From IMG/VR virus record IMGVR_UViG_3300017917_002954, positions 1 through 64,000 of that record: a stretch of DNA of 64,000 nt, one strand, 5' to 3'. The stretch comes from a virus. Below the pieces are notes generated by a model that was not told the origin of the DNA, did not search any database, and saw nothing but the letters and a program-made list of their open reading frames with translations. The position numbers and the translations under genes were made by a program. Positions 30,943 to 54,658 of this stretch are shown here, in pieces (positions within the stretch are counted from its first letter, which is position 1; every line of letters begins with the position of its first letter).

Positions 30943-31292
30943 ATGAAACCACACAAAATTTTTTAGAAATCTGGAACAGCCTTGAACCATGGGCTCCTCC
31001 AGTGGTGCTGTTTAGATTGTACTACGATGAGTCTGGTGCGCCAATAGAATACAGTCATGAAGACAAACCCGGTAATTACATTGATGTTGATCCAGAGACT
31101 TTTGTGAGGCAATCACAGCACGTCCGTGTGGTAAACGGACAACTGATCAAAGTTTTACCAAAAATCGCAATTGATAAACTGGTTCCAGACTCAGACACAG
31201 GAACAACTTGCTCAGTCAAGGATGTTTGTATTGTAGTCAGCAACAATGAGCCACACATTAAATGGAGTTTGAAACGCAATGAAACAAATTGA
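30939..31292 (+). CDS. Small conserved protein, unknown
   Basis: 117 residues when started at the ATG that overlaps the previous stop (ATGA); an upstream in-frame extension exists but would lie inside the previous gene. Sequence features: an aromatic N-terminal helix, then PPVVLFRLYYDESGAPIEYS, GNYIDVDPETF, and a C-terminal strand part with two Cys and IVVSNNEPHIKWSLK. It may be a small binding domain. I do not recognise it. It sits between glycosyltransferase-like genes and overlaps the next start by 14 bases. Confidence 0.6.
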   Translation: MNETTQNFLEIWNSLEPWAPPVVLFRLYYDESGAPIEYSHEDKPGNYIDVDPETFVRQSQHVRVVNGQLIKVLPKIAIDKLVPDSDTGTTCSVKDVCIVVSNNEPHIKWSLKRNETN

Positions 31293-32205
31293 TATAGCAG
31301 ACTTAGACTGCATCTATCTCAGCTACGACGAACCTCAGAAAGAAGAATTCTGGGTAAAAATACGCAACATGGTTCCTTGGGCCAAACGTGTGGATGGAGT
31401 CAAAGGTAGTGACGCCGCACACAAAGCAGCTGCGGCTGCCAGTGACACTGAACGTTTTGTTCTCATCGATGGTGATAATTTACCCGATGACAAATTTTTT
31501 AATCTGACATTGGAATTGGCTGACGAAACTTGGGAGTCCGCAGTGTTCCGTTGGCGTGCTAAAAATCACATCAATGGACTCATGTACGGCAATGGTGGAC
31601 TCAGTTCGTGGACACGCACATTTGTTAACAACATGCGTACACACGAAGCCACGGATGGTCGTACAGAAACTCAAGTAGAATTTTGTTTTGATCCGTTGTA
31701 TTGGGCGATGCACGACTGCTATTCAACTACCTATCCCAATGGCGATGCTTTTCATGCCTGGCGTGCAGGATTTCGTGAAGGTGTCAAGATGTGCCTGAAC
31801 AAAGGTGCTAGGCCCACTGTGACAGAATTTAGAGATCGTGTACATCAACGCAACTTGGATCATTTGACTGTGTGGCACAACATAGGCAGTGATGTAGAAT
31901 ATGGACAGTGGGCCATAGCCGGCTCAAGAATGGGCACATACATGACCATGCTCACAGAATGGGATCATCAACAAGTACAAAATTTTGATGCTTTACAAGA
32001 GCTTTGGGCCACTGTGGCTGATCAAGATCCAGAACTTGTGGCCAATCGAGTTGCAGAGGATTTGACCACACAGTTGGATCTTCCTATGATGTCAATGTTT
32101 GCAGAACACAGCCGTTTTTTCAAACAGCACTATAGATCAAACTGGCACAATCAAGGAATTATGATCAGAGAGATTGACGTTATACGTCAGCAAGAAGGTT
32201 GGTAA
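31279..32205 (+). CDS. Glycosyltransferase-like protein (DGDN motif)
   Basis: 308 residues. After a first strand CIYLSYDEP, the segment KRVDGVKGSDAAHKAAAA leads to RFVLIDGDNLPDD, with D64 and D66 in a D-x-D position, as in GT-A enzymes. Downstream are INGLMYGNGGLSSW and HAWRAGFREGVKM. The same series of blocks recurs in the C-terminal 200 residues of the protein encoded at 49249-51228, so the two share a domain. The C-terminal 100 residues are mostly helical. Substrate unknown. The 3' end overlaps the convergent gene by 26 bases. Confidence 0.6.
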   Translation: MKQIDIADLDCIYLSYDEPQKEEFWVKIRNMVPWAKRVDGVKGSDAAHKAAAAASDTERFVLIDGDNLPDDKFFNLTLELADETWESAVFRWRAKNHINGLMYGNGGLSSWTRTFVNNMRTHEATDGRTETQVEFCFDPLYWAMHDCYSTTYPNGDAFHAWRAGFREGVKMCLNKGARPTVTEFRDRVHQRNLDHLTVWHNIGSDVEYGQWAIAGSRMGTYMTMLTEWDHQQVQNFDALQELWATVADQDPELVANRVAEDLTTQLDLPMMSMFAEHSRFFKQHYRSNWHNQGIMIREIDVIRQQEGW

Positions 32206-32878
32206 TTTGTTTAGCTAGAGCTAGATGAGTTTGAACACCGTAGTGAAAACCGTCGCGAGCAAAATCAATTTGTTTGATTGGTTGAATTAAGTTAGACGAA
32301 TTATATTCAACTGGCTGAGGGTGCCAGTTTGGAATAAAACTGTGTATCACGGGCACAGACAAGTTTTCAATCGTTTCAAAATTGGTTTTCCAGTTAGCTA
32401 AATTTTGTTCGTCTGTGTATATAGGCTCACATTCAGTTCTTTCATCGTCGTGCCAGTTAGGAAATGGACGCTCTCGACGATGACTGAATGTATAATGTAC
32501 TATCACAGCTTTGGGATTAAAAAATTCCAATAACTCTTGGACTCTTCTGGCAATCCAGTCGTTGCTGGCACCATTGAGACTGAAGTTCAGCACAGGATAG
32601 TTTAACAACGTGGATAACTGTGCAGGCCAAGTTTGGTCAGCATTGACTCCGAGCCCTAGAGTAAAGCTGTCGCCCACTGCCAGTATTTCGTTGCCAGTGT
32701 ATTGTTCTTTTTCTCGATAGCCCATGGAATTAAATTTGTAGTGAATTTGTTCAGGGTAAGAATGATAGTGTGCTGAATTCAAACAATGAGCGGGACTGTC
32801 TAAACCAATGGTATCGCATACCATATTGGCATAATAGGGAATAGTGACAGTTTGTGCTAGGGTCCGGAGCTGGTCCAT
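32180..32878 (-). CDS. SGNH/GDSL hydrolase-like protein
   Basis: 232 residues. Residues about 65-75 read ILAVGDSFTLGLGV, the GDS nucleophile block. LNFSLNGASNDW gives the Gly/Asn blocks II-III, and DFARDGFHYGVQTH near the C-terminus supplies the D-x-x-H pair. SGNH enzymes deacylate or transfer acyl groups on sugars and lipids. It is the only minus-strand gene among plus-strand neighbours, convergent with the DGDN glycosyltransferase gene and 11 bases from the divergent sulfotransferase gene. Two other SGNH-like genes lie in the window (42583, 56043). Confidence 0.75.
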   Translation of the reverse strand: MDQLRTLAQTVTIPYYANMVCDTIGLDSPAHCLNSAHYHSYPEQIHYKFNSMGYREKEQYTGNEILAVGDSFTLGLGVNADQTWPAQLSTLLNYPVLNFSLNGASNDWIARRVQELLEFFNPKAVIVHYTFSHRRERPFPNWHDDERTECEPIYTDEQNLANWKTNFETIENLSVPVIHSFIPNWHPQPVEYNSSNLIQPIKQIDFARDGFHYGVQTHLALAKQITNLLADV

Positions 32879-32883
32879 AAATA
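32876..32883 (+). promoter_or_regulatory. Late-promoter-like CATAAATA in divergent gap
   Basis: CATAAATA overlaps the minus-strand start codon and lies 6 nt before the plus-strand ATG at 32890, which has no ribosome site. Same arrangement as before gp25 and gp6. Confidence 0.4.
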
Positions 32884-32889
32884 TTTGAT

Positions 32890-33987
32890 ATGAATGTTCT
32901 CATACTTACCCCTGATCGGGTTGGCTCCACATTATTGCAAAGATTAATAACGGTTTACGCCAATATCAATGAAAATGGTCAACCGTTGTCTATTAACCTG
33001 CATGAGTTGACCAATGGATTGACCAAATACCACAGCACAGAGTTTGATCGAGAGGTACTGGGTAAAAAATCTGATGGTTGGGGCTATCATCAAAGTCTGG
33101 TCGAAATTGCGTCAATGATTGACAGTGTTGATCATGACATCGTTAGTCGTTTGGCACACTATCATATCAAAAATAGAAAAGATAACATTGCTGAACAGTT
33201 GGAGTTTTATCGATATCTAAATGAAAATTTTTATATCATTGCTGCTCGTCGTAAAAATTTGTTTGAACATGCAATGAGTTGGTGTATAGCAACAGAATCT
33301 AAAAAACTCAACGTGTATAATTTTGATGAGAAATACGAAACTTATCAACGCATAGCCAAACATGGAGTAAATGTTCAGTCCGAATCCATTGAAAAATATC
33401 TCAATCAATATCATGAATATCTGGATTGGGTTGACAGACACTTTCATGTCAACAGTTATTTTGAATATGAAAGAGATCTGCCCAACATTGAAAACTATAT
33501 TTTGAATCTTGGAACATTCAAAGACTTTGAACACACGCAAAATTGGCTTGACCATTTTGGTATTTCATGGGACTCCTGGAACAGAATGCATTATCTGTTG
33601 AGTTTGGTACCATGGCAGTACTATTTCAGTGATGAAGAAAAAGACTTTATAAAAACCAATATCGATCTGTATTCAGCTACTCGTGTAAAAATACAGGACC
33701 TTCAGGACAGCGGAGTGTTGGTCAGCGGGATACCCATCAAGTTGCACACACTCAAGCAAAAGGCAGAATTGATCACAAATATTTCTCAATGTTTGGAACA
33801 CTATAACCATTGGATAGGAGTCAATAGACCTTCCTACGCATTGGCCTACAAACCAGAAACATTGAGCCAAACTGCACTGTTGGAGCACAGCCAGTGGTCT
33901 ACAGCACCCGGAAATATTGTATCACAATTGACATCGGCAGACGTTTCGGAACAGAAACTTTTGATGTCGGACCTCCGTCTTTCTTGA
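32890..33987 (+). CDS. Sulfotransferase-like protein
   Basis: 365 residues. The N-terminus LILTPDRVGSTLLQRLI (residues 4-20) is a PAPS 5'-phosphosulfate loop of the sulfotransferase type, and FYIIAARRKNLFEHAMSWC (residues 114-132) gives the 3'-phosphate part with R120/R121 and S130 at the expected spacing. The remainder is helical. Cytosolic sulfotransferases move a sulfo group from PAPS to sugars or small molecules. Phage sulfotransferases are uncommon. It lies with glycosyltransferase-like genes, so a surface glycan is a likely acceptor (inference). The ATG has no Shine-Dalgarno; a CATAAATA element is 6 nt upstream. Confidence 0.7.
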   Translation: MNVLILTPDRVGSTLLQRLITVYANINENGQPLSINLHELTNGLTKYHSTEFDREVLGKKSDGWGYHQSLVEIASMIDSVDHDIVSRLAHYHIKNRKDNIAEQLEFYRYLNENFYIIAARRKNLFEHAMSWCIATESKKLNVYNFDEKYETYQRIAKHGVNVQSESIEKYLNQYHEYLDWVDRHFHVNSYFEYERDLPNIENYILNLGTFKDFEHTQNWLDHFGISWDSWNRMHYLLSLVPWQYYFSDEEKDFIKTNIDLYSATRVKIQDLQDSGVLVSGIPIKLHTLKQKAELITNISQCLEHYNHWIGVNRPSYALAYKPETLSQTALLEHSQWSTAPGNIVSQLTSADVSEQKLLMSDLRLS

Positions 33988-34012
33988 CCTTTACAAATAA
34001 AAAAGTTATAAT
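33984..34012 (+). promoter_or_regulatory. Sigma-70 promoter TTGACC-N17-TATAAT
   Basis: TTGACC (33984-33989) overlaps the stop of the sulfotransferase gene; spacer of exactly 17; TATAAT at 34007-34012. The ATG of the next gene is 5 nt after the -10 box and has no ribosome site, so the start point would fall on the start codon. Confidence 0.75.
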
Positions 34013-34017
34013 AAAAG

Positions 34018-34704
34018 ATGATTATTGCATTCTATCCTGGCGGCTGTGGCAACAGATACTTACAGTATCTATTGGGCAACGAGTGGTCCACACATCGCAG
34101 AAGCTATGACAACGCTGCCTTTCAGTTGTTTGAGCATCGTTATCTATTGAGTTCAGTTCCTCCTGCTGTGCAAGAGCACACGCTGACACACAGCGTGAAT
34201 TCTGAACAAATCAGTCGTGCGTTTCCGGATCAGCCCATTGTGTTTATCAAAACTGATCTTCAACAGAGCCTGCGCCGAGAATGGATGTTGCACGGGCATG
34301 AGAGATTCATGACCAAGAAAGCCAAAACAGACCCATCTCGTCTTGAACACTATAATGCAATCAAAGACAGCTCTTGGCCCAACATTGACAGTGCTGAACT
34401 GCTGGACAGTTTACCAGAGCACATTTTGAAAGAAGTCAATGACAACTATGTACAAACAACAGCCACAACTGGTATAATCTCAAACATGATAGTCGAATAC
34501 TCAAACAAAATTGAGTCAGCCTATGAAAATATTCAATGGCACCTTGATTATTATAAAACCTATCCTGAAGACTTTTCTAAAGCTACAACAGTGATTGATG
34601 TTGCATCGTCAGACACTAAATTTGCTCAAACAATTAGAAACGAACTTGGGTTGTATTCCAGTGAAGTATTTGATAACGTATGGAACAAAATTCATGAGCA
34701 ATAA
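34018..34704 (+). CDS. P-loop sulfotransferase-fold-like protein, unknown
   Basis: 228 residues. It starts MIIAFYPGGCGNRYLQYLLG, a Gly-rich loop like the 5' PAPS or nucleotide loop of sulfotransferases, and IVFIKTDLQQSLRREWMLHG resembles the R/S part of the 3' site. The rest is helical and acidic. A second sulfotransferase-like enzyme is the best guess but the motifs are weaker than in the preceding gene; another P-loop kinase-like fold is possible. It has its own promoter and starts the long radical SAM operon. Its end overlaps the next gene by 11 bases. Confidence 0.5.
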   Translation: MIIAFYPGGCGNRYLQYLLGNEWSTHRRSYDNAAFQLFEHRYLLSSVPPAVQEHTLTHSVNSEQISRAFPDQPIVFIKTDLQQSLRREWMLHGHERFMTKKAKTDPSRLEHYNAIKDSSWPNIDSAELLDSLPEHILKEVNDNYVQTTATTGIISNMIVEYSNKIESAYENIQWHLDYYKTYPEDFSKATTVIDVASSDTKFAQTIRNELGLYSSEVFDNVWNKIHEQ

Positions 34705-36103
34705 CAAAGGCGACGAATCAGTCAATAACAAGAGCAAATTTCTTAGCAGTGCTGAACAAATGAAACAGGCACTAGGAGAAGGTTTGTGCTTGGCCAAATG
34801 GAAACAGGTCAGCTTGCATTTGCCCACAGGATTAAACAACAGTTGCTATCATCCGCCCTTGCATGAGATACCTGCAGAACTATTGATCTCTAATCCCAGT
34901 GCGCTACACAATACTCCACACAAAAAAGAGCAACGTAAGATTATGTTGCGCCAAGAACGACCCACGGAGTGCAGTTATTGTTGGGCCATGGAAGACAATG
35001 GCAAGCTGAGTGATCGACACTATAGATCAGGAGAACCCTGGGCTGCCAAAGATTTTGATGTCATAGTAAATTCAAACGGAGATGAAGATGTTATTCCCAG
35101 TTATGTTGAAGTTAATTTTAATAATGCCTGCAATCTTTCTTGTAGTTATTGTAGCCCACAATTTAGCAGTACCTGGGCACAAGAGGTGGAACGTTGGGGC
35201 GGGTATCCTACAACAACTATTCATAATGATCCTGGCCATTTTGTGGGTCGTAATCGTCCTATCCCTGCAAGAGAGGACAACCCCTATGTTGACGCATTCT
35301 GGCAGTGGTGGCCCACCCTGTACCCAGAACTAGAACATTTCCGTATGACCGGTGGCGAGCCACTACTAGACAAAAATACCTATCGAGTGTTTGACTATGT
35401 GTTGGCCAATCCCAAACCCAATCTACATCTCAATGTGACTTCAAACTTTAGTGTAGATGAAAAGTCATGGAACAAATATCTGGGTTATGTCAAGCAATTA
35501 TGTGAAGGTGAACGGATTGAACACTTTATGCAATACGTTAGTTTGGATGCCTGGGGTGATCAAGCAGAATACATCAGACACGGACTAGACTTTAATTTGT
35601 TATGGGATCGTGTGAATCAATTCTTGACCGAGATACCTGGACGTAATAGTATTACATTTATTGTGACCATGAACAATCTTTCAGTCACTAGCTTGGGTAG
35701 TTTAATGGCTGGCATACTGGGACTAAGACACATATACTCCAAGACCTATCAGCGTATCTGGTTTGATACTCCTGTGTTGCGTACTCCTACCTGGCAGAGT
35801 TTACAGTTATTGCCTGAAAGCTATGTGGATCATCTGGAACAAACCTGGACCTGGATGATGAAAAATTTAGAAAAACCCGAAGATCCATTTCACGGATTCA
35901 AAGACTATGAATTGGCTAGATTGGATCGAGACATTGCCTGGATGCGTGATGGTCAACGATTGGATGCTGACTATGTGGCTCGAAACAAAGCAGACTTCTA
36001 TAGATTCTTCACTGAACACGATCGTCGCCGCGGCACCAACTTCCTAAAGACTTTCCCAGAAATGAGTGCTTGGTGGTCAGAATGTGAGTACCATGCTAGG
36101 TAA
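34694..36103 (+). CDS. Radical SAM protein with N-terminal twitch-like domain (1 of 6)
   Basis: 469 residues from the ATG at 34694, chosen because it lies at the end of the previous gene; the upstream frame extension would be wholly inside it. The radical SAM cluster is C146-x3-C150-x2-C153 (CNLSCSYC), with the GGE block MTGGEPLLD about 90 residues later. Before it come LCLAKW, NNSCYHPP and ECSYCWAMEDNG, giving Cys/His positions that suggest an extra iron-sulfur cluster N-terminal to the barrel. The C-terminus has DRRRGTNFLKTFPEMSAW, shared in variant form with the other members. Closest relative in the window: the gene at 37222. Substrate unknown. Confidence 0.8.
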   Translation: MSNNKGDESVNNKSKFLSSAEQMKQALGEGLCLAKWKQVSLHLPTGLNNSCYHPPLHEIPAELLISNPSALHNTPHKKEQRKIMLRQERPTECSYCWAMEDNGKLSDRHYRSGEPWAAKDFDVIVNSNGDEDVIPSYVEVNFNNACNLSCSYCSPQFSSTWAQEVERWGGYPTTTIHNDPGHFVGRNRPIPAREDNPYVDAFWQWWPTLYPELEHFRMTGGEPLLDKNTYRVFDYVLANPKPNLHLNVTSNFSVDEKSWNKYLGYVKQLCEGERIEHFMQYVSLDAWGDQAEYIRHGLDFNLLWDRVNQFLTEIPGRNSITFIVTMNNLSVTSLGSLMAGILGLRHIYSKTYQRIWFDTPVLRTPTWQSLQLLPESYVDHLEQTWTWMMKNLEKPEDPFHGFKDYELARLDRDIAWMRDGQRLDADYVARNKADFYRFFTEHDRRRGTNFLKTFPEMSAWWSECEYHAR

Positions 36104-37229
36104 TCGCCAGCTGGTTGTAGACTCGGCCTGCGGCATTGCTCAATTACTACAACCCTGGACTGACAGCCAGTTCTCTACATTTCAATCAGTGGAGTCAGTG
36201 CCGGGCAACATTTACTTGTTTGGTCGCCAACAGCTGATTGACAACAAGCAACGCATAATAGAAATGGCCGAGTCTGGTCACTACACTGTGATATTTTGTG
36301 ATGTGTGTGAAGGATCTTGGACTCTGCAGAGTCAGGTACAGATGCTGGGTATTGAACCGTTGATTCAGCAACACAAGATATTGTTGATATCCGGTGGAGA
36401 ACAACAAACAGATTATCCTTACATACAGTATGATCATTTTTTGATTGAGATATTAAACTATGAAACAAATCTCACTGAAATGAGTCGCATCAATGAGATC
36501 TTTGATTGCAAACAAAAACCTTATAAATTTTTATTTCTAAATGGGCGTGCCAGACCTCACAGAAAATATTTGTACGAACGTTTCAAGCAGTTAAATTTGT
36601 TGGATCAAAGTCTGTGGACCATGTTGGAAAGTCGTCCTTGCTTTACACAAAGTTTTGAACTCATGGATAACAATATCAACTTAATGGCCACTGTTAGCGA
36701 ACTAAAATGGCTACCAAAAAACTATGAAGTTGACCGCTATCAAAATTCAACCATTGAGCCAGGGCCAGCAAAACGCACCATGGTCAAACAAGAACTATTC
36801 AATCATACCTGGGGTGAAATTTATCTAAGGGCCGAGCCATACATTGATACCTATTTTTCTTTGGTCACCGAAACAGTGTTTGAGCAACCGTGGCCCTTTA
36901 GAACAGAAAAGATAGCCAAACCTTTGATGATGGGTCATCCTTTTGTAGTGGCCAGTGGCCCGGGCTTTTATCGAGACTTACATAGATTGGGTTTTCAAAC
37001 ATTTGGACACGTGATCGACGAATCATTTGATTCAATTGACAATCATCGAGACAGAATAGAACGGATTATAGCAGTGGTCTCTGATCTTTGTCAACAGGAT
37101 CTTGACTCTTTCCTAGCAGAATGCTATACTGTGTGTAAATACAATCAGCAACATCTTCAAGACATCGCTCCCCGATTAAAAGCTGAATTTCCAGAAAGAT
37201 TTATTAACTTTATGTCTCAACATGAATGA
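36093..37229 (+). CDS. Putative glycosyltransferase-like protein, TEK/DESFD family (1 of 3)
   Basis: 378 residues from the ATG overlapping the previous stop by 11 bases. The N-terminal half is Rossmann-like (LVVDSACGIAQLL; YTVIFCDVCEGSW; HKILLISGGEQQ). The C-terminal half contains SLVTETVF, RTEKIAKPLMMGHPFVVASG, then LHRLGFQTFGHVIDESFDSI. The same ordered blocks occur in the proteins at 46993-48165 and 48162-49250. The E-T-x-F...TEK arrangement recalls the donor-site region of GT-B fucosyltransferases, hence the tentative call; no proof. It separates two radical SAM genes in the same operon. Confidence 0.5.
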   Translation: MLGNRQLVVDSACGIAQLLQPWTDSQFSTFQSVESVPGNIYLFGRQQLIDNKQRIIEMAESGHYTVIFCDVCEGSWTLQSQVQMLGIEPLIQQHKILLISGGEQQTDYPYIQYDHFLIEILNYETNLTEMSRINEIFDCKQKPYKFLFLNGRARPHRKYLYERFKQLNLLDQSLWTMLESRPCFTQSFELMDNNINLMATVSELKWLPKNYEVDRYQNSTIEPGPAKRTMVKQELFNHTWGEIYLRAEPYIDTYFSLVTETVFEQPWPFRTEKIAKPLMMGHPFVVASGPGFYRDLHRLGFQTFGHVIDESFDSIDNHRDRIERIIAVVSDLCQQDLDSFLAECYTVCKYNQQHLQDIAPRLKAEFPERFINFMSQHE

Positions 37230-38559
37230 TTTAGAATTTCGACAACAAATACTAGATACAAAAAGCGCCAGCTTTTGTGCAGCCAAATGGTACAATGCTA
37301 CCATATGGTTAGGTTCTGGCATGACCACCAGTTGCCATCATCCGCCAGCACACCTAGTGGATCGTGAAGCTGTGCAACAAAATCCTCGACTGCTACACAA
37401 CACACCTCAAAAAAAGAACGATCGAGAGTTGATGTTGCGTGGCGAACGTCCAGCGGGTTGTGAATACTGCTGGAAGATTGAAGACATGGGTCGTGACGCT
37501 ATAAGTGATCGTGTTTACAAATCAAAAATTTATCCCATAAAGGCCTTAGATGAAGCATATAACACACCTAGTGACCAAGACGTTAACCTACGTACACTCG
37601 AGATTGCTTTCGATCGCACTTGCCAGTTCGCTTGTTCTTATTGTAATCCAGCCTTTAGCTCAACCTGGGTCAAGGACATCCGTAATAATGGCCCTTACAC
37701 TGCTCTTGTCAGTGACGGTCGCAATCATTTTACACATACACACGACAGTAGTCAATTATATAAATTTGGTGAAACGAATCCCTATGTCGACGCTTTCTTT
37801 GCCTGGTGGGAATCAGACCTACACAAGACGCTGGAAGAACTCCGTATTACAGGTGGAGAACCACTTATGTCGGGCGAAACGTGGAAACTGCTCGATTGGT
37901 TTAAAGCCAACCGGGGTAAGAGTACCACACGCCTTGCGATCAATTCCAACCTGGGTGCAGAAGTAGACGTAGATAGATTGTTAGACTCAATTGACGGCTT
38001 GGAAGTAGACATCTACACATCAAATGAATCAGTGGGTCCGCAGGCCGAGTACATTCGAGACGGACTAGATTGGCGAGCTTGGATCACCAACGTGAATAAA
38101 ATAGCCACATCAGGACGTGTTCGTAGAATACACATAATGAACACCATCAATGCCTTGTGCTTGGATAGCTTGCCAGAGTTTTTGGATCTAGTTATTTGGT
38201 TCAAAAACATACACGGCACAGACAAGATCAGTTTTACGTTAAATATATTAAGATTTCCAAGTTTTCAAAGTCCACTGGTACTCAGTGAAGATCTACGCAC
38301 ATACTATCGAGATCGTTTGACAGAATTTTATGTGCGTACCAAAGACACTGGCGCTCTACAAGAACACGAATGCAATCACATACAACGCTTGATTGACTAT
38401 TTGGATGTTGTAAAAACTCCACACAGCGAAGCATTTGACATGCCCAAGTTGTTGAATGATTTCCGACAGTTCTACACGCAATATGATCAACGTCGAGGAA
38501 AAGACTTTGCAAAAACATTTCCACATCTAGCAGAATGGTACAATGACATATCAATATAA
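37222..38559 (+). CDS. Radical SAM protein with N-terminal twitch-like domain (2 of 6)
   Basis: 445 residues. Radical SAM cluster C134-x3-C138-x2-C141 (CQFACSYC), GGE block RITGGEPLMSGE. The N-terminal Cys/His part (FCAAKW, TSCHHPPAH, GCEYCWKIEDMG) matches the protein at 34694 block by block, so these two form a subfamily. The C-terminal YDQRRGKDFAKTFPHLAEW is also shared. Overlaps the previous gene by 8 bases. Codon use in the middle (about 37540-37960) differs by eye from the flanks, which could mark recombination. The reaction is not predictable; sugar or peptide substrates are both seen in this superfamily. Confidence 0.8.
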   Translation: MNDLEFRQQILDTKSASFCAAKWYNATIWLGSGMTTSCHHPPAHLVDREAVQQNPRLLHNTPQKKNDRELMLRGERPAGCEYCWKIEDMGRDAISDRVYKSKIYPIKALDEAYNTPSDQDVNLRTLEIAFDRTCQFACSYCNPAFSSTWVKDIRNNGPYTALVSDGRNHFTHTHDSSQLYKFGETNPYVDAFFAWWESDLHKTLEELRITGGEPLMSGETWKLLDWFKANRGKSTTRLAINSNLGAEVDVDRLLDSIDGLEVDIYTSNESVGPQAEYIRDGLDWRAWITNVNKIATSGRVRRIHIMNTINALCLDSLPEFLDLVIWFKNIHGTDKISFTLNILRFPSFQSPLVLSEDLRTYYRDRLTEFYVRTKDTGALQEHECNHIQRLIDYLDVVKTPHSEAFDMPKLLNDFRQFYTQYDQRRGKDFAKTFPHLAEWYNDISI

Positions 38560-39823
38560 CAGCACAGACCTGGTAAAGAAAGTTGCGTTGACCGAACGCG
38601 AAGAATTTTTATTAAAAGATTCTAAAACATTTTGTATCTATCCTTGGATACACTTACATGCTTACCCCACTGGTGAAGCATATCCTTGCTGTCATGCCGA
38701 AATGGGCGTGGGTCAAGTTGGAAACTGTAGAGAAAATACACTCAAAGAAATTTGGAACAGTGACGCACAGAAAAAACTCAGAACAGACATGCTGACAGAA
38801 ACACCCAATCCTGCTTGTGCTCGTTGCTATGAACAAGAAGAGTCAGGATTCTTTTCGGGTCGTAGATCAGCCAACAAACATCATGGACATCATGTTGGGC
38901 GTGTGGTCATGACAGAGCCAGATGGTCATGTAAATCACTTTGGCATGACCTATTGGGACATACGTTTTAGCAATTTGTGTAATTTAAGTTGTAGAAGTTG
39001 TGGACACATCTTTAGTAGTTCGTGGTATCAAGATCAAGCTCAATTGGCAGGTCCAACCTGGGCATTGAACAATTCTGCTCTGAACATTGCTGGTCGTGAT
39101 AAAAATGACATGTGGGAACAGTTGTTGCCGCACCTTGACTATGTAGAGCAAATATACTTTGCTGGTGGCGAACCTTTGATGATGGAAGAACACTACAACA
39201 TATTGGACGAGCTAGAACGACGTGGACGTTTTGATGTGCGTTTGATCTACAACACAAACTTTACACAGACCAAGCTCAAAGATCGAGAAGTGTTTGACTA
39301 CTGGCGCAAGTTCAAAAGTGTAGCAGTGGGAGCCAGCCTAGATGCCCAGGGTCCACGTGCTGAATACATTAGACGTGGCACTGATTGGGCTCGTGTGGAA
39401 CGCAATCGCAAAGAAATGATGCGAGTGTGTCCTGAAGTAGATTTTTACATCAGTCCAACACTGAGCATTTTAAATGCCTGGCACTTGCCTGATTTTCACC
39501 GTGACTGGGTCAATCGAGGTCTGTTAAAACCTCAAGACTTGAATGTAAACATACTTCAAGATCCTGCTTACTTGCGCATTGATATTGCAACAACAGAATA
39601 CAAAGAACGACTCAATGCTCGTTATCAAGAACACTTGGATTGGTTGCGTCCACAGGATCGACTCAACAGAGCCACTGTGGGTTTTGAATCAGCCGTTAAC
39701 TTTATGATGGCCACTGATAACACTCACTTGATTGACACGTTCTGGCGCAAGACACACGAGTTGGATACAATAAGAAAAGAAAACGTACTGGATGTAATTC
39801 CGGAATTAAAAATACTGCAATGA
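38543..39823 (+). CDS. Radical SAM protein with N-terminal SPASM/twitch-like domain (3 of 6)
   Basis: 426 residues. Residues 30-100 read like a SPASM module: FCIYPWIHLHAYPTGEAYPCC, then GNCRENTLKEIWNS and CARCYEQEESG, but placed before rather than after the barrel. The radical SAM cluster is C146-x3-C150-x2-C153 (CNLSCRSC), with YFAGGEPLMMEEHY. It shares very long nearly identical stretches with the next protein (YNTNFTQTKLKDREVFDYW in both), so it is a recent duplicate. The C-terminus is LDTIRKENVLDVIPELKIL. Overlaps the preceding gene by 17 bases and the next by 4. Confidence 0.82.
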   Translation: MTYQYNSTDLVKKVALTEREEFLLKDSKTFCIYPWIHLHAYPTGEAYPCCHAEMGVGQVGNCRENTLKEIWNSDAQKKLRTDMLTETPNPACARCYEQEESGFFSGRRSANKHHGHHVGRVVMTEPDGHVNHFGMTYWDIRFSNLCNLSCRSCGHIFSSSWYQDQAQLAGPTWALNNSALNIAGRDKNDMWEQLLPHLDYVEQIYFAGGEPLMMEEHYNILDELERRGRFDVRLIYNTNFTQTKLKDREVFDYWRKFKSVAVGASLDAQGPRAEYIRRGTDWARVERNRKEMMRVCPEVDFYISPTLSILNAWHLPDFHRDWVNRGLLKPQDLNVNILQDPAYLRIDIATTEYKERLNARYQEHLDWLRPQDRLNRATVGFESAVNFMMATDNTHLIDTFWRKTHELDTIRKENVLDVIPELKILQ

Positions 39824-41394
39824 ATATCAACGAGAAACTCAACTACTATCAACAAAACTTTGATGTAGTCGGTGTATTCTTTTTGTCAGGATGGTCTGTG
39901 GAATCTTGGATTTCACAGTGGAAGAAATTTGAAATTGAATTGGCATCTGCTAGAAAATCGTCCTTTGCTGACCGCGATAGAATTGTATTTGTATTTGATC
40001 CACAGGAATACGATGCACTAACGTTTCAAAGTTTTTTTAAAAAGTTCATACAAAAATTATTTGAAATAGACATCAGTAATTTTTTTGCTGTGTTGCTAAC
40101 CAGTGATGATCCTGCGGTGCTGTTGGAATATTTCAAACAGTACAGCCCTGATCCAGTACTGCCAACAGTTGATACCTACAGTGCTGTAATCAACCACAAA
40201 GAATCTCAACCCACTGATACCTTTTGTATTTTGCCCTGGAATCATTTGATGGTGACTCCTTATCAAACAATCAAAACTTGCTGTATGGGACAAAGTGTGT
40301 TGGGTCAAGTTGACAAAAACACTCTGGCAGAAGTATGGAACAATGATACCATGACGGAGATCAGACAAAGTTTGCTTCAAAACAAGCATCATCCAAACTG
40401 TTCTGATTGTTATACCAACGAAAAACACGGCAATCAAAGTTTGAGACAGAAACTCAACAGTGCGTTTGAACAACAAGTTGCCAAGGTCAAACAAAGCAAC
40501 AATGCAGTTGCGGAAACTTTTGAATTAAAATATTTTGATTTGCGATTTACAAACTTGTGCAACATTAGATGTAGAACATGCAATCATCACTCAAGTTCAA
40601 AATGGTATCAAGACACTGTCAAACTTGATCCCTTGTACGCCAAGCCAGTGCTAATGAAAGCCGGAAGACACGAAACTGACATTTGGGAACAACTAGAATC
40701 TCATTTGGACTGTGTTGAACAGATATACTTTGCTGGCGGCGAACCCTTGATCATGGAAGAACACTACAAGTTGTTGGATGAACTTGAACACCGTGGCAGA
40801 TTTGATGTACGACTGGTTTACAATACCAATTTCACGCAGACCAAACTCAAAGATCGCGAAGTATTTGATTACTGGCGTAAATTCAAAACAGTCAGAGTTG
40901 GTGCCAGTTTAGATGCCATGGGTGATCGAGCTGACTACATTAGAAAAGACAGCAAATGGGCAGTGATTGAATCCAATCGTCGAGCAATGATGGAAATTTG
41001 TCCTGAGGTGCATTTTGAAATCACACCAACTGTGAGCATCATGAATGTCATGCACTTGCCTGATTTTCATCAGCACTGGGTTGAACTAGGACTTATTCGA
41101 CCGCAAGACGTAAAACTAAATATTCTTCAAGATCCGCACTACTATAGAATTGACATTGCCTCCGACCGATACAAACAATCTGTGGAAAAAAGAGTGCAAG
41201 AACACTGTGAGTGGTTGAAACAATATCCTAACACAGAAACAATTCAACAAAGCTATATGTCCGTTATAAATTATATGTTTGCCAATGATAACACACAATG
41301 GTTGCCAGAATTTTGGCAACGTACTCGAGTGTTGGACTCACTACGCAATGAAGAAGTTTTGCAAATACTACCTGAGCTATGGGATTTACTATGA
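39820..41394 (+). CDS. Radical SAM protein with extra N-terminal domain (4 of 6)
   Basis: 524 residues, about 100 longer than its paralogue at 38543 because of an N-terminal Rossmann-like extension (residues 1-125, DVVGVFFLSGWSVESW, DRIVFVFDPQEYDAL, FFAVLLTSDDP). Then come the SPASM-like block (FCILPWNHL, TCCMGQSVLGQ, CSDCYTNEKHG), the cluster C247-x3-C251-x2-C254 (CNIRCRTC) and YFAGGEPLIMEEHY. The C-terminus LDSLRNEEVLQILPELWDL matches the family. The start is the ATG in the ATGA overlap. The extension could bind a carrier or substrate. Confidence 0.8.
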   Translation: MNINEKLNYYQQNFDVVGVFFLSGWSVESWISQWKKFEIELASARKSSFADRDRIVFVFDPQEYDALTFQSFFKKFIQKLFEIDISNFFAVLLTSDDPAVLLEYFKQYSPDPVLPTVDTYSAVINHKESQPTDTFCILPWNHLMVTPYQTIKTCCMGQSVLGQVDKNTLAEVWNNDTMTEIRQSLLQNKHHPNCSDCYTNEKHGNQSLRQKLNSAFEQQVAKVKQSNNAVAETFELKYFDLRFTNLCNIRCRTCNHHSSSKWYQDTVKLDPLYAKPVLMKAGRHETDIWEQLESHLDCVEQIYFAGGEPLIMEEHYKLLDELEHRGRFDVRLVYNTNFTQTKLKDREVFDYWRKFKTVRVGASLDAMGDRADYIRKDSKWAVIESNRRAMMEICPEVHFEITPTVSIMNVMHLPDFHQHWVELGLIRPQDVKLNILQDPHYYRIDIASDRYKQSVEKRVQEHCEWLKQYPNTETIQQSYMSVINYMFANDNTQWLPEFWQRTRVLDSLRNEEVLQILPELWDLL

Positions 41395-42596
41395 AACTAC
41401 CACACGATAAATTTTGTGTACTACCGTGGATCAGCCTAGAAGCCAGCCCAATTGGCACAGTGCGTCCTTGTTGTTTGGCCGATGACGAAATAGTAGACAA
41501 CACTGGCAACAAATTCAAACTGTTGACCAGCACATTTGCTGACATACAGTCCAGCAATCACATGCAAACTCTACGACAGGAATTCCTGGATGGCAAACAA
41601 CCCAAAACTTGCCGCCGTTGTTGGGCCGAAGAAGATGCTGGACGCACCAGCAAACGCATGCACACACTCAACAGATTGAAACACATGGGCATCACACCTG
41701 ATTGGACAGCAGATGCCAAACCTCTGATGTTTTTGGATCTCAAACTGGGCAACATATGTAATTTGAAATGTCGTATCTGTGGATCATGGTCGAGCAGTCA
41801 GTTTGCAGCCGAAGAGTTGAAATTTGTAGACAACAAAAAACAATCCTTTCATTATGTCATGCTTCGTGAAGGTGCCTGGCCCAGAGAAAACAGTCAGTTC
41901 TGGACAGAATTAAACAACTCATTGGCAGACATACGCTACTTGGAATTCACCGGCGGTGAACCTTTTCTAATAGAAGAACATTTTGAGTTATTGCAAACGC
42001 TGGTCAATCAAGGTGTGGCTCATCAAGTTGAAATACACTACAACACCAATGGTACACAGTATCCTGAACATGCAGAAGAAATTTGGCAATATTTCAAACA
42101 TGTTGAAATTGCCTTTAGCATTGACGATGTGGGCAAACGATTTGAATATCAACGAAGCAATGCTGTATGGTCTGAAGTGTGTGAAAACATTGAACGATTC
42201 CGAGGCATGCGAGAACGCAATCTAAACATGACTCTGCAGGTATGTTGCACTGTTAATATTTTTAACATTATGTCTCTAGAGGCTGTGGCCAATTGGATCG
42301 ACACACAAGATTTTGATTTTGTATATTGGAATATGTTGCACGATGCGCCGTGGTTGAGCATTGCACATTTACCAGCAACAGCCAAAACCGCTATAACTCA
42401 GCATTTGAATGACAGTATGTTCCCTGTACACTACGAAGATGAAATACAAAAAATCATTGAATTTATGAACATGGGAGAGTCAACTGACGGTGTAGAATTG
42501 CTAAAAAATATACGTCAACTTGATCAGCGACGCGATCAAAATTTAAAGTTGGTTGCTCCGGAACTGGCAGAAATACTAAACTATGATCAAGGCTAG
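41391..42596 (+). CDS. Radical SAM protein with N-terminal SPASM/twitch-like domain (5 of 6)
   Basis: 401 residues starting at the ATG in the ATGA overlap (an in-frame ATG 12 bases upstream is inside the previous gene). N-terminal block: FCVLPWISLEASPIGTVRPCCLADDE, then CRRCWAEEDAG. Radical SAM cluster C123-x3-C127-x2-C130 (CNLKCRIC), followed by YLEFTGGEPFLIEEHFELL. C-terminal LDQRRDQNLKLVAPELAEIL. It is more diverged than the pair before it, so it stands as its own subtype. No precursor peptide accompanies it. Confidence 0.82.
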   Translation: MKLPHDKFCVLPWISLEASPIGTVRPCCLADDEIVDNTGNKFKLLTSTFADIQSSNHMQTLRQEFLDGKQPKTCRRCWAEEDAGRTSKRMHTLNRLKHMGITPDWTADAKPLMFLDLKLGNICNLKCRICGSWSSSQFAAEELKFVDNKKQSFHYVMLREGAWPRENSQFWTELNNSLADIRYLEFTGGEPFLIEEHFELLQTLVNQGVAHQVEIHYNTNGTQYPEHAEEIWQYFKHVEIAFSIDDVGKRFEYQRSNAVWSEVCENIERFRGMRERNLNMTLQVCCTVNIFNIMSLEAVANWIDTQDFDFVYWNMLHDAPWLSIAHLPATAKTAITQHLNDSMFPVHYEDEIQKIIEFMNMGESTDGVELLKNIRQLDQRRDQNLKLVAPELAEILNYDQG

Positions 42597-43113
42597 AGAT
42601 GATCGTTCTGGCCACAATGCACTGGCTTTTGGTTGCAGTCACACATACGGCATAGGAGTAGAATCCAATGAAGCTTGGCCTTATTTGTTAAATGCCGCTA
42701 ACTTTGGACAGCCAGGTGTCAGTGCTGATTTTATAGTTCGCACAGCACCTGCTGTGATAGAAAAATATCAGCCTCAAACAATTTACATTTTATGGCCGGA
42801 CTGGACTAGATTTGAATATATACAAGACGCCAAGTATCAGCAAAGTCTAGTCACAGACAGCAATCGTGTACAGTTTATGCAAAGTCACCCCGAGTCTTGG
42901 TTGTTGTCTAATTTTCAAACACAACTAAAGAAAATGCAGGATCTTTGCAACATTCTTAACATTAGATTGGTTGGTATGACTCTAGATGATTTGATTCCAT
43001 ACATAGATCATGCTGATCGTTGGCCCGTTAGTAAGCTGGGTCATCATTACAGCCCTGAGTGGCATCAATGGGTAGCAGATATATTTAGAAAAAAACACAA
43101 TGAACAAACCTGA
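42583..43113 (+). CDS. Small SGNH hydrolase-like protein
   Basis: 176 residues. The nucleophile block reads ALAFGCSHTYGIGV, with GCS in place of GDS; FGQPGVSADFI gives the Gly block, and HHYSPEWHQWVAD at the C-terminus could supply the catalytic His. The enzyme would act on acyl or other ester groups; loss of the usual Asp after Gly may mean altered activity, though GxS with a following His also occurs in the 56043 copy (GDSHT). It lies between two radical SAM genes, overlapping each by about 14 bases. Confidence 0.65.
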   Translation: MIKARDDRSGHNALAFGCSHTYGIGVESNEAWPYLLNAANFGQPGVSADFIVRTAPAVIEKYQPQTIYILWPDWTRFEYIQDAKYQQSLVTDSNRVQFMQSHPESWLLSNFQTQLKKMQDLCNILNIRLVGMTLDDLIPYIDHADRWPVSKLGHHYSPEWHQWVADIFRKKHNEQT

Positions 43114-44392
43114 TACATTATGCATGGCACCCTGGACTCATACCTACTTGAGTCCACAAACAGAGCGACGTATGTGCTGTGCCAGCCGTGAACCTGCACA
43201 GAGTTTTCAACAGTATATTGATACCGAATCAGGCACTGGGGTATATGCACCACAGACTCTGGAAGAGTGGTGGAACGGTGAACACATGCGAAGTGTGCGT
43301 CGTAGAATGTTGGCTGGAGAAACCTTGTCAGAGTGCGATGTATGCAATAACAAACTGTTGAACACAGATGTTTATCGCGACTATTTTACACACTTGTTTC
43401 GACACAAATTGCCAGAAGTGTTTGCGTCAACCAGCGATGATGGTACAACCACAATGAAGCCTGTGAGTTGGGATTATCGTTTCTCAAACCTGTGTAATTT
43501 CAAATGTCGCATGTGCGGAGACATGTTAAGCTCAAGTTGGGAAACCGAACAACGACAACACAACATGATCAACTGGGCTGATAGCAAAAACAACTGGCAA
43601 CTTCCTGCTGTGCGTGAACAAATTACCAAATTTCAAGAGCAACAGATTGAAGCAGAGTTTGCTCAAGCAGTTGAAGAACACCGTGTGGAAGAAATATATT
43701 GGGTAGGTGGTGAGCCACTGATGTACGAACAACACTGGCGCTACATGCGTCGTATAATTGAACTAGGAGACGGAAAACAAGTATATGCAAGATACAACAC
43801 AAATCTATCGCGGGTGGACTACAAGGGTATTAATTTGTTTAGCGACATTTTGGATCATGTTCGTGATTATCAAATCTGTGCAAGTCTCGATGGCACAGGC
43901 GCAATTGGCGAATATATCCGAACAGGTCTCAACTACGAATCTTGGTTGGCCAACTACCGACAAGCTGTACAGCATCGTCGATACAGTCGCCAGTGTAGAA
44001 TTGACTTCACGCTCACCTTACCCGGATTGTTTGAAGTTGAAAATATTGTGCGCCTAGCTGAAGAAACCGACAGTGAAATCCTGGCCAAGGTAGTGTTCAG
44101 CTTCAGTCCAGACATTATATTAAGTCCATTGGCACTGCCACGAGAATTACTAGACAGCACTGTGGACAGTCTAACAACAAAAATACCTCATGGTGCATTA
44201 CGAGATACCTTATTACAATTAAAAACACGTCCAACTTTTGCAGAGCAATGGCCTGATTCTTATCAACAAGGTCTTGCACGAGGAAAACAACGTGTGCTAC
44301 AATTAGAATCTATTAGAAAGGATACAGTCACCCTTGACTCTATTTTACAACCATATCGACACATCCATGACTGGTACCAATCAATTGCTTGA
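43100..44392 (+). CDS. Radical SAM protein with N-terminal SPASM/twitch-like domain (6 of 6)
   Basis: 430 residues. N-terminal block LCMAPWTHTYLSP, RRMCCASREP, TLEEWWNGEHMRSVRR and CDVCNNKLLN match the SPASM-like order. Radical SAM cluster C132-x3-C136-x2-C139 (CNFKCRMC), then a 70-residue insertion with a helical segment (FQEQQIEAEFAQAVEEH) before IYWVGGEPLMYEQHW. The C-terminal RxxxLxxxxPEL signature is weaker than in other members. Last of the six radical SAM genes; overlaps the next gene by 26 bases if that gene starts at 44367. Confidence 0.82.
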   Translation: MNKPDTLCMAPWTHTYLSPQTERRMCCASREPAQSFQQYIDTESGTGVYAPQTLEEWWNGEHMRSVRRRMLAGETLSECDVCNNKLLNTDVYRDYFTHLFRHKLPEVFASTSDDGTTTMKPVSWDYRFSNLCNFKCRMCGDMLSSSWETEQRQHNMINWADSKNNWQLPAVREQITKFQEQQIEAEFAQAVEEHRVEEIYWVGGEPLMYEQHWRYMRRIIELGDGKQVYARYNTNLSRVDYKGINLFSDILDHVRDYQICASLDGTGAIGEYIRTGLNYESWLANYRQAVQHRRYSRQCRIDFTLTLPGLFEVENIVRLAEETDSEILAKVVFSFSPDIILSPLALPRELLDSTVDSLTTKIPHGALRDTLLQLKTRPTFAEQWPDSYQQGLARGKQRVLQLESIRKDTVTLDSILQPYRHIHDWYQSIA

Positions 44393-45413
44393 TCAAATAA
44401 CAATCACACTGGACAATAAATTAAAAGTGCAGGTCAATGTCTACGACAGTAGTCTCAGTAGAAAATGGCTCAGTGCCTTGAATGACTTGTTGAAAAACAA
44501 CTATCATTTGGAAAAAAACTATTGCTGGTTTGGATTTGCTGATGGCCCAAGAAATGGTGCATATCTGTTGAGAGAAATCAACAACAGCATTGCTGAAATT
44601 AATCTAGCCAACATTGGCTACACCATCAACGACTACTTTACCATGGAAAACAGTGTGGATGATCAGGATGGAGTCAATCACGATCATTTCAATCAACTGC
44701 ACAGATACTTTGAAGATCTGCAAGGTGTACATGGACACATAAGTCCTTACTACACACAAGCAGATTCTCGTACTCGTTGGCATATACGACAGTTAAATCT
44801 ACTGTGTCACGAATTTGAATCATGGCAACTGAGCTGGAGAAAAAAGCACACAGCTCCAGAGTGGCAACGTCCCAGTCAACTTATGTGTTGGTTAAATGCT
44901 CCACGCTTTGAACTAACTCCAGAAGACTATGAACTATTTGGCATTGAAACTATCAATAGAAGTCTTGGTGGAGTTTATGTAGGTGTAAACAAAGCCATTG
45001 GCAAGCACCATTGGGAAGTGTTTCAAGACGAAGGCAGAGACAGTCGTGTACATGAACTGACCACTACTACGCTAAGAGCACAGACCCTGGCCGCCGGAGA
45101 CTTTGACATAGAGTGGGCCAACAATCCGGGTGAATTTCCTTGGCAGATCAAACAACTAGCAGAGTTTAGACAGTGGTTGATTGACAACAATTTTGATCCC
45201 AACGACAAGAGCTTGACCATTGGGCATCCACAAGTGGGTCAAGTGGACTTGATTGCCAGCTTTGGCACAGAAGATTACCAAGAGATTTGGAGCCAGTTAA
45301 ATACTCATTTAAATGTCACAGCAATCAAAACCAGTGATGCCAGTGCAGAATATCCGTACAACTGGACTGACCGTGATTACATAGAGCAACAAATAAAGAT
45401 ACTAGGAAACTGA
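44367..45413 (+). CDS. Conserved protein of unknown function in radical SAM operon
   Basis: 348 residues from the ATG at 44367, which overlaps the previous gene by 26 bases. Features: an N-terminal strand pair (ITITLDNKLKVQVNVYD), a helical part with HDHFNQLHRYFEDLQG and RWHIRQLNLLCHEFESW, and a strand-rich C-terminal half with NRSLGGVYVGVNKAIGKHHWEVFQDEGRD. Several conserved-looking His and Asp could bind a metal, but no known motif is clear. I recall similar proteins beside radical SAM genes in marine phages without assigned role. Confidence 0.6.
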   Translation: MTGTNQLLDQITITLDNKLKVQVNVYDSSLSRKWLSALNDLLKNNYHLEKNYCWFGFADGPRNGAYLLREINNSIAEINLANIGYTINDYFTMENSVDDQDGVNHDHFNQLHRYFEDLQGVHGHISPYYTQADSRTRWHIRQLNLLCHEFESWQLSWRKKHTAPEWQRPSQLMCWLNAPRFELTPEDYELFGIETINRSLGGVYVGVNKAIGKHHWEVFQDEGRDSRVHELTTTTLRAQTLAAGDFDIEWANNPGEFPWQIKQLAEFRQWLIDNNFDPNDKSLTIGHPQVGQVDLIASFGTEDYQEIWSQLNTHLNVTAIKTSDASAEYPYNWTDRDYIEQQIKILGN

Positions 45414-45414
45414 T

Positions 45415-45516
45415 ATGAAATGGTTCAAACAACTATATGAGCGTGTGAAACTTGAAATACGCTACAGAAAAAAACTCAAAGAACTTCGCAAAAGAGATCC
45501 GTTTATCTATAAATGA
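45415..45516 (+). CDS. 33-aa basic microprotein upstream of carbamoyltransferase
   Basis: Short gene: ATG one base after the previous stop, TGA overlapping the next ATG (ATGA at 45513). The product is 33 residues, very basic and helical (MKWFKQLYERVKLEIRYRKK then LKELRKRDPFIYK). Aromatic and leucine positions suggest an amphipathic helix. The tight coupling to the carbamoyltransferase suggests a partner subunit or membrane tether (inference). Too short for family assignment. Confidence 0.6.
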   Translation: MKWFKQLYERVKLEIRYRKKLKELRKRDPFIYK

Positions 45517-47009
45517 AATTACAACATATATTAGGTATCAGTGCCGGCTTTCATGATGCGGCAGCCACAGTGATTGACAGTCGCGGCGAAATTCTGTTTG
45601 CTGGACACAGTGAACGCTATAGCAAAAAGAAAAATGATGCTGACCTTTGTCCTGGCTTGATTGCTGAGTTGGTTAATTATCGCATCGAGCATGTTGCGTA
45701 TTATGAGAGACCTTGGATGAAACAACTGCGTAATCTACGTGCCGGTCAAGGTGTTGAGTGGAACAAATTGACAGTGATGCAAATACTCAAACAACAGATT
45801 GGATCTGAGTTTGGGGCATTTCCTGGAAAAATTACCTCACACAATCATCATCTCAGTCATGCGGCAGCAGGTTTTCAGACAAGTCCATACGATCGTGCCA
45901 CAGTAGTTGTGATAGATGCCATTGGTGAGTTTGATACAATATCAATCTGGGGAGCAGAATATGATCGCACAGGTCGTGCAACTTATAAAAAACTTTGGGG
46001 TCAAACATACCCGCACAGCATCGGACTGTTTTATAGTGCGATTACTAAGCGAGTTGGCCTACACCCACTAGACGAAGAATACATAACCATGGGCATGGCC
46101 GGGTGGGGTCGACCCAACTGGTATCAACGCATGTATAGAGATCTTGTTGCCAGTGTGGATGAAGTTCAATTCACACAAAATTTACACATAGGTATTGAAG
46201 AAGAATACTTGGACATGGCTACCAATGAAGATTTGGCAGCATCAGCACAATTATTGGCCGAAACCTTGATAGGTGAAGTCATGGCCCGTGCTCGTGGCCT
46301 GGGTTGGAGTCGTAATCTTGTGTACATGGGCGGTGTGGCTCTTAACTGCTTGGCCAATCGCAACTTAGGCAACTATTTTGAAAACATCTGGATCATGCCT
46401 TGCCCTGGTGATGCCGGGTCAAGTCTAGGTGCGGCTGCGTTGGCCTTGGGCAAAAAAATACATTGGCAAGATGCTTACTTGGGACACAACATTGCAGGTC
46501 CTTATCCTACCAACGCCTTGTTGGATGAGTTAGTTGTAAACAAAATAGTAGGTGTTGCCAGCGGACGTGCAGAGTTTGGTCCTCGAGCACTGGGCAATCG
46601 TAGCCTGTTGGCGGATCCACGTGGTCTAGAAATTAAGGACAAAGTAAATGACATTAAACGAAGACAAAAGTTTCGACCTTTCGCTCCAGTCATTCTTGCT
46701 GAGCATGTTCATGAGTACTTTGACATGCCTGCCGGTTGGAGTAATTCTGACTATATGCAGTGTGTCGCCCGTTGTCGCTACCCTGATCAGTATCCTGCTA
46801 TCGTTCATGTTGACGGTACTAGTCGTGTACAAACCGTACCGAAGACTAGCCGAAGCGGAATACGTGAACTCCTTGAAAAATGGTATGTGATGACCGGTTG
46901 CCCTATGTTGCTTAATACAAGTTTAAACATACGTGGCGAACCCATGGTCAATGATCGTGCGGATGCAGATCGTTTTGAACGAGAATACAGCGTCAAGGTT
47001 TGTAGCTAA
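45513..47009 (+). CDS. NodU/CmcH-type carbamoyltransferase
   Basis: 498 residues. The N-terminal kinase-like domain starts ILGISAGFHDAAATVID; the metal and carbamoyl-phosphate region has HNHHLSHAAAGF (residues 110-121) and VVIDAIGEFDT; GGVALNCLANRNL and PGDAGSSLGAAALA follow; the C-terminal YrdC-like part has GRAEFGPRALGNRSLLADP and KFRPFAPVIL. These enzymes use carbamoyl phosphate and ATP to carbamoylate a hydroxyl on a sugar or antibiotic. The length is below the usual 550-600 residues but all core motifs are present. Codon use in the last 400 bases differs by eye from the rest. The 3' end overlaps the convergent gene by 17 bases. Confidence 0.85.
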   Translation: MKLQHILGISAGFHDAAATVIDSRGEILFAGHSERYSKKKNDADLCPGLIAELVNYRIEHVAYYERPWMKQLRNLRAGQGVEWNKLTVMQILKQQIGSEFGAFPGKITSHNHHLSHAAAGFQTSPYDRATVVVIDAIGEFDTISIWGAEYDRTGRATYKKLWGQTYPHSIGLFYSAITKRVGLHPLDEEYITMGMAGWGRPNWYQRMYRDLVASVDEVQFTQNLHIGIEEEYLDMATNEDLAASAQLLAETLIGEVMARARGLGWSRNLVYMGGVALNCLANRNLGNYFENIWIMPCPGDAGSSLGAAALALGKKIHWQDAYLGHNIAGPYPTNALLDELVVNKIVGVASGRAEFGPRALGNRSLLADPRGLEIKDKVNDIKRRQKFRPFAPVILAEHVHEYFDMPAGWSNSDYMQCVARCRYPDQYPAIVHVDGTSRVQTVPKTSRSGIRELLEKWYVMTGCPMLLNTSLNIRGEPMVNDRADADRFEREYSVKVCS

Positions 47010-54629: not shown

Positions 54630-54658
54630 ATTATAACAGTATTATTGATCTTTTGCAA
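54630..54658 (-). promoter_or_regulatory. Sigma-70-like promoter TTGCAA-N17-TATAAT
   Basis: On the minus strand, TTGCAA (54658-54653), 17-base spacer, TATAAT (54635-54630), then 5 nt to the ATG. It lies over the 3' end of thyX. The same 5-nt spacing is seen at 34018. Confidence 0.55.

Follow-up and report, generated by a model that had tools for sequence, protein, structure and literature searches.

Six tandem radical S-adenosylmethionine (SAM) genes lie at positions 34694-44392 of a virus contig from a large tailed phage (IMG/VR record IMGVR_UViG_3300017917_002954, 72,040 bases; the window analysed is its first 64,000). The six open reading frames (ORFs) form one operon in which nearly all overlap their neighbours by a few bases, and the 72-kb record holds exactly six PF04055 matches. 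Each ORF contains CxxxCxxC where the prediction had placed it; in R6 the motif starts at C127 when counted from the ATG at 41379 and at C123 from the next in-frame ATG. All six proteins match the NCBIfam family N_Twi_rSAM (NF033640, 'twitch domain-containing radical SAM protein') over nearly the full length of the profile, at 297-401 bits (E = 4e-88 to 6e-120). These scores lie far above the curated cut-off of 170 bits, so the N-terminal twitch belongs to a named family. The original prediction had read the tandem array, its motifs and an N-terminal-twitch enzyme type from the DNA. The ORFs, PF04055 and NF033640 confirm the array and its motifs, and the family matches, N-terminal SPASM matches and retained cysteines uphold the type.

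34694-36103, + strand: R1, N-terminal-twitch radical SAM protein, CYHPP subtype, core; NF033640 312 bits
37222-38559, + strand: R3, N-terminal-twitch radical SAM protein, CHHPP subtype, core; 299 bits
38543-39823, + strand: R4, N-terminal-twitch radical SAM protein, core, the most conserved; 401 bits
39820-41394, + strand: R5, N-terminal-twitch radical SAM protein, accessory, carrying an additional domain of ~130 residues; 384 bits
41379-42596, + strand: R6, N-terminal-twitch radical SAM protein, core; 340 bits
43100-44392, + strand: R8, N-terminal-twitch radical SAM protein, core; 297 bits

The enzymes carry a conserved four-cysteine module in front of the barrel. Pfam SPASM (PF13186) matches stand N-terminal to the barrel in R4 (residues 31-96), R5, R6 and R8 (E = 2e-12 to 2e-4), the same four in which a SPASM-like block had been predicted. 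The CHHPP/CYHPP pair had been taken for a variant without the cysteine set, and this proved wrong: every one of the six paralogues has C31, C50, C92 and C95 (R4 numbering), so R1 and R3 carry the full set too. R1 keeps C32, C51, C93 and C96 together with C146, C150 and C153 in 63 distinct sequences, R3 keeps all seven cysteines in its orthologues, and for each core gene 53-65 distinct orthologues retain both the N-terminal four and the barrel three. The CxxxCxxC and GGEP motifs are invariant in the six paralogues and the orthologues examined. Behind the barrel the only conserved cysteine is C464 of R1. In classical SPASM enzymes a seven-cysteine module holding two auxiliary clusters follows the barrel; with no conserved cysteine set in that place, these are not classical SPASM enzymes. 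We take the pattern C-x18-C-x41to51-C-x2-C to resemble the twitch pattern of BtrN. The SPASM profile matches liken the proteins to the twitch/SPASM enzymes BtrN, MoaA, anSME and CteB, but here the module comes first, and the barrel has no conserved cysteine set after it. The module may be an auxiliary iron-sulfur (Fe-S) cluster site near the active site.

Structural comparison places the barrels among enzymes of both sugars and peptides. AlphaFold2 models reached a mean predicted local distance difference test score of 86.8 for R4 and 92.8 for R1. Foldseek returned the sugar and nucleoside enzymes BlsE, DesII and AprD4 as barrel neighbours, alongside peptide enzymes that include CteB, SkfB, anSME and EpeE. 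A search of the PDB with R4 alone gave no match, and an R4 profile matched only barrels (viperin, BlsE, SkfB and others). Each core group has one further invariant cysteine (R1 C270, R3 C313, R4 C296, R6 C289, R8 C260). A hydrogen-donor cysteine in every enzyme, as in radical SAM epimerases, was rejected, because R4 C296 and R1 C270 precede strands and point away from the active site, as read from predicted secondary structure. By the same reading a donor is conceivable in R3, R6 and R8 only, and it stands outside the explanation given below.

Five of the six enzymes and a NodU-type carbamoyltransferase form a syntenic core. From 190 stretches matched in an R4 scan of the viral collection, the top 80 served as R4-selected loci; counts of later genes in these loci are limited by the length of flank taken. 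R1 was present in 79/80, R3 in 80/80, R6 in 79/80, R8 in 73/80 and NodU in 64/80, with amino acid identities of ~70% for R1, 72-79% for R4 and ~62% for R6. The order and strand g31279-R1-GTB1-R3-R4-R6-R8-g44334-NodU held in 80/80. An R8 scan of viral_contigs gave at least 599 matching stretches, and the 80 loci used from it contained R1 in 71, R3 in 76, R4 in 76, R6 in 71 and NodU in 73. Since co-occurrence is recovered from the R8 search as well, it is no artefact of the R4 query. Co-occurrence in related phages had been set beforehand as a test, and the two sets of loci together exclude the opposite outcome.

31279-32205, + strand: g31279, upstream of a variable slot; DGD motif, GT-A-like by eye, weak Glyco_tranf_2_3 match (E = 0.07); 76/80 loci, 75% identity
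36066-37229, + strand: GTB1, uncharacterised transferase-like protein, core position with variable sequence, which we take to be GT-B-like; 74/80 loci, ~41% identity
44334-45413, + strand: g44334, conserved protein directly after R8, no match in the PDB; 67/80 R4-selected and 38/80 R8-selected loci
45513-47009, + strand: NodU, NodU/TobZ-type O-carbamoyltransferase, core; PF16861 2e-50, PF02543 9e-35, phrog_1601 1e-91

The core enzymes are old and differentiated. Each core radical SAM group forms a single clade supported at 100/99 or better, and the groups stand far apart in the tree; pairwise distances are correlated among the five (r = 0.56-0.76). This deep separation argues that they are not local duplicates. 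Mean pairwise amino acid distance is 0.24-0.33 in the radical SAM core, against 0.44-0.53 in the transferase-like genes. The six had been predicted to be equal members of one pathway; instead five make up the core, to which R5 and the two SGNH genes are added in few loci. R5 has one relative in the viral_contigs scan. A recent local origin of R5 by duplication was rejected, as the tree places it sister to the whole R4 clade, itself supported at 100/100 without R5. The g44334 protein, which looked universal from the R4-selected loci, is absent from about half of the R8-selected ones and was rejected as a universal gene. N_Twi_rSAM was previously known as a family name only, and literature searches for it in phages turned up no study of function; here five diverged orthologue groups make up one conserved operon.

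The carbamoyltransferase is a core member of the cassette. In a set of 20 large R4-selected contigs (104-349 kb) it occurs exactly once in every contig, in the same cassette, which bears out its predicted co-occurrence with the radical SAM genes. Both Carbam_trans domains are present, and H14, H112, H113, H116 and D135, to which we assign a catalytic role on the model of TobZ, are invariant in 44 sequences. Its solved relatives are GdmN, the novobiocin carbamoyltransferase and TobZ. These enzymes carbamoylate hydroxyls of antibiotics, some of them on sugars.

Inserted genes occupy fixed slots of the cassette, and the slots hold mainly radical SAM, sugar and small-molecule enzymes among genes with a family match. 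One hundred representative slot proteins included 21 Radical_SAM, 5 GDP_Man_Dehyd/Epimerase, 3 DegT/DnrJ/EryC1 and 3 Stf0 sulfotransferase proteins, as well as hexapeptide and methyl transferases; some slots contain AMP-binding enzymes. The slot upstream of R1 in one locus encodes a B12-binding-type, methyltransferase-like radical SAM protein (L072:4394-5806). In six loci of one sub-lineage the cassette contains a MetK above the equivalog cut-off (for example L087:15526-16626). A methylthioadenosine/S-adenosylhomocysteine (MTA/SAH)-type nucleosidase lies in the cassette of ten loci, including all six with MetK (for example L076:13859-14434). Nucleosidases of this type remove 5'-deoxyadenosine. 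Judged by their families, the two genes would fit a supply of SAM and the removal of its by-product; neither was found in the window's own record, which is a fragment. Fe-S biogenesis genes are frequent in the large contigs (A-type carrier in 16/20, IscU in 13/20), in agreement with Fe-S genes reported from T4-like ocean phages (PMC5332604).

Further transferase-like and sugar-enzyme genes surround the core.

29427-30224 and 30223-30942, + strand: GTa and GTb, two probable GT-A glycosyltransferases; 64-65/80 loci
32180-34704: accessory insert of three genes between g31279 and R1, as follows
32180-32878, - strand: SGNH/GDSL hydrolase (PF00657, 1e-5); 7/80 loci
32890-33987 and 34018-34704, + strand: two proteins, P-loop sulfotransferase-like by eye, with no significant family match; 2/80 and 5/80 loci
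42583-43113, + strand: SGNHb, accessory, SGNH-hydrolase-like by eye, no match in family-library scans; 3/80 weak matches
46993-48204 and 48162-49250, - strand: GTB2 and GTB3, GTB1 relatives; 43/80 and 58/80 loci
49249-51228, + strand: repeat protein of 659 residues with FD/SWHPD motifs, no match in a family scan; 29/80 R4-selected and 66/80 R8-selected loci
52282-53382, - strand: DegT/DnrJ-like sugar aminotransferase, motifs by eye
53336-54325, - strand: NAD-dependent epimerase/dehydratase, motifs by eye

GTB2 and GTB3 are 14-20% identical to GTB1 and share invariant residues with it, and the C-terminal part of the repeat protein resembles g31279. The core transferase-like proteins have no Pfam match, and PDB profile searches with the uncharacterised core proteins gave nothing useful. 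Side genes at 51308-52285 and 54642-55328 include a PstS-like phosphate-binding protein (phrog_5385) and one that reads by eye as ThyX-like. Elsewhere on the record are genes, also judged by eye, for a TctC-like binding protein, a solute symporter, a TerC-like protein and a MoxR-like ATPase.

The cassette lies downstream of the tail genes of a jumbo-myovirus-like phage. Baseplate and virion genes occupy 10-11387 of the record, and the baseplate wedge protein is ~34% identical over its entire length to those of jumbo myoviruses such as Pectobacterium phage CBB and Cronobacter phage GAP32. This whole-length match is what likens the source to Rak2/CBB-like phages, and together with the baseplate and virion genes it upholds the phage setting first predicted. 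Reading 5' to 3', two putative fibre genes and then a long run of transferase-like genes enclosing the six radical SAM genes follow one very long ORF.

11389-25935: ORF of 4848 codons, flanked by the baseplate wedge gene and the fibre genes and probably coding for a giant tail protein

In 20/20 large contigs a Rak2/CBB-like baseplate gene stands 24-31 kb upstream of the cassette on the same strand. An R4 query of cultured Rak2/CBB-like phages found no N_Twi_rSAM relative.

Relatives of the family occur in an isolated phage and in bacteria. Vibrio phage K566 encodes five radical SAM proteins, ~22-25% identical to those of the window, interleaved with glycosyltransferase genes (two GT8 above the Pfam cut-off and one GT4-like). 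On MH319727.1 (L256, 5979-7953), a single-cell marine virus fragment, a NodU 50.5% identical to the window's is followed directly by an N_Twi_rSAM relative, in reversed gene order. Stand-alone chromosomal copies in Bacteroidota, Alphaproteobacteria and Paenibacillus share no neighbourhood or pathway, and eight such bacterial copies (L103, L109, L125, L127, L129, L150, L157 and L160) group near R8 in the tree. Single N_Twi_rSAM genes in L168-L173 lie among replication, repair and ClpP-like genes, UvsX-like and clamp-loader-like by eye.

We propose that the cassette is a phage glycan biosynthesis locus whose conserved core is five N-terminal-twitch radical SAM enzymes and an O-carbamoyltransferase, a reading to which we give an even chance. 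It draws on a radical SAM core that varies less than its transferase-like neighbours, on the sugar enzymes of the slots, on the GT8 genes of K566 and on the relatives of NodU. The fixed order and strand of the overlapping genes, the single NodU of each large contig, the MetK, nucleosidase and Fe-S genes, the upstream baseplate gene and the sugar and nucleoside enzymes among the barrel neighbours also speak for it. The slot contents and the K566 glycosyltransferases also sustain the glycan setting of the original prediction. From the observed gene set and order, the retained catalytic and auxiliary cysteines and the slot contents, we infer radical chemistry on sugars, an order of steps and a site of display. 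Once glycosyltransferase-like proteins had assembled a sugar chain, its carbons would be altered by the radical SAM enzymes in succession (for example by epimerisation, deoxygenation or oxidation), and NodU would add a carbamoyl group to a hydroxyl. Swapped slot genes (nucleoside-diphosphate-sugar dehydratases/epimerases, sugar aminotransferases, sulfotransferases, hydrolases, extra radical SAM enzymes) would vary the decoration. Because the cassette lies downstream of baseplate and fibre genes, its position suggests display on the tail fibres; the host surface is also possible.

Several observations weigh against a glycan locus. Whole-chain template-modelling scores normalised to the query were at most 0.40, reflecting barrel-level matches only, so the folds do not decide between sugar and peptide substrates. 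Cellular family members are single genes, mostly without sugar loci nearby, and the same phages carry other N_Twi_rSAM copies between replication genes; the family as such is therefore not tied to glycans. The transferase labels of GTB1, GTB2 and GTB3 come from motifs, and Pfam and PDB searches gave no match. The likeness of GTa and GTb to GT-A folds is weak, though uniform: all 18 weak PDB profile matches are to glycogenin or NleB glycosyltransferases, the best at E = 0.28.

The cassette could instead modify proteins, the radical SAM enzymes altering tail-fibre or structural proteins by epimerisation, thioether formation or carbon-carbon links while the transferases glycosylate the same proteins. 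Peptides are frequent substrates of SPASM/twitch radical SAM enzymes, the fold matches include CteB, SkfB, anSME and EpeE, the cassette follows fibre genes, and the Aeromonas phage 332-Vera is described as having eight radical SAM genes in a tail-fibre cluster (PMC12390700). Yet the overlapping genes R1-R8 leave no gap for a separate precursor ORF, a family scan of the cassette proteins found no peptide-recognition domain, the ten proteins at 34694-47009 contain no PqqD-like domain as in pathways for ribosomally synthesised and post-translationally modified peptides, and family-matched slot genes are mostly those of radical SAM, sugar or small-molecule enzymes; we consider this account rather unlikely. 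Less probable again is a pathway for a carbamoylated secondary metabolite made during infection, comparable to that of the jumbo cyanophage S-SSM6a, for whose carbamoyltransferase cluster Iyer et al. propose a sugar- or amino-acid-derived metabolite (PMC7824862). The AMP-binding enzymes in some slots and the antibiotic enzymes among NodU's relatives would suit such a product, but halogenase, export and carrier-protein genes were not seen among the hits, and several transferase-like genes are constant neighbours.

Modification of the phage's own DNA, with the radical SAM enzymes and carbamoyltransferase acting on hydroxymethylated bases, seems very improbable. Phage carbamoyltransferases and radical SAM enzymes do occur in DNA hypermodification pathways, and glycosyltransferases can modify DNA. 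However, the locus sits in the tail and baseplate region, and PF00303, the thymidylate-synthase/hydroxymethylase family, is found in 0/20 of the large R4-selected contigs, whose records may be incomplete, and in 4/9 of a second contig set. A hydroxymethylase of this family is therefore not required with the cassette, while PF00303-independent pathways are conceivable. That the genes share no pathway, being unrelated insertions or a mobile gene family in selfish expansion, is barely credible. Further N_Twi_rSAM copies are dispersed over the genomes that carry the cassette (6-21 matches per large contig, n = 20) and extra radical SAM genes occupy slots, but five one-clade orthologue groups in fixed order in 80/80 loci, with correlated distances and invariant cysteines, and co-occurrence that persists in the R8-based search already contradict this account.

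Multiple radical SAM genes in phages are already known; for the five-enzyme core with NodU a literature search found no report. The T4-like TARA_ERS488813_N000010 has 12 such genes (PMC5332604) and 332-Vera, of the Chimalliviridae, the eight mentioned above. The likeness lies in the many radical SAM genes and, for 332-Vera, in their place among tail-fibre genes, whereas the available portions of both reports describe no conserved five-enzyme order with a carbamoyltransferase and propose no pathway. The capsular-polysaccharide clusters of jumbo phages and the S-SSM6a cluster described by Iyer et al. 2021 resemble the cassette in their paralogous glycosyltransferases, sugar modifiers, carbamoyltransferases and polymorphic content (PMC7824862). 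That text makes no mention of radical SAM enzymes, which are here the most conserved part.

In this locus a radical SAM family appears as the most conserved part of a syntenic region shared by hundreds of environmental jumbo-phage contigs. Its glycan-pointing neighbours suggest a class of substrates on which the N-terminal-twitch family can be tested, and the cultured Vibrio phage K566, with its radical SAM genes interleaved with glycosyltransferase genes, offers a laboratory entry point. Tentatively, and with more doubt than belief, we suggest that the five core enzymes are a dedicated multi-step radical assembly line, different from known sugar pathways, for converting a common sugar to a carbamoylated tail-fibre glycan of a new kind, some of the phages adding MetK to supply SAM and the nucleosidase to clear radical by-products. 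If this is true, both the substrate class and the use of the N-terminal clusters would be new. The locus points to radical chemistry in several steps run by the phages themselves, backed by phage-encoded SAM synthetase, nucleosidase and Fe-S assembly genes.

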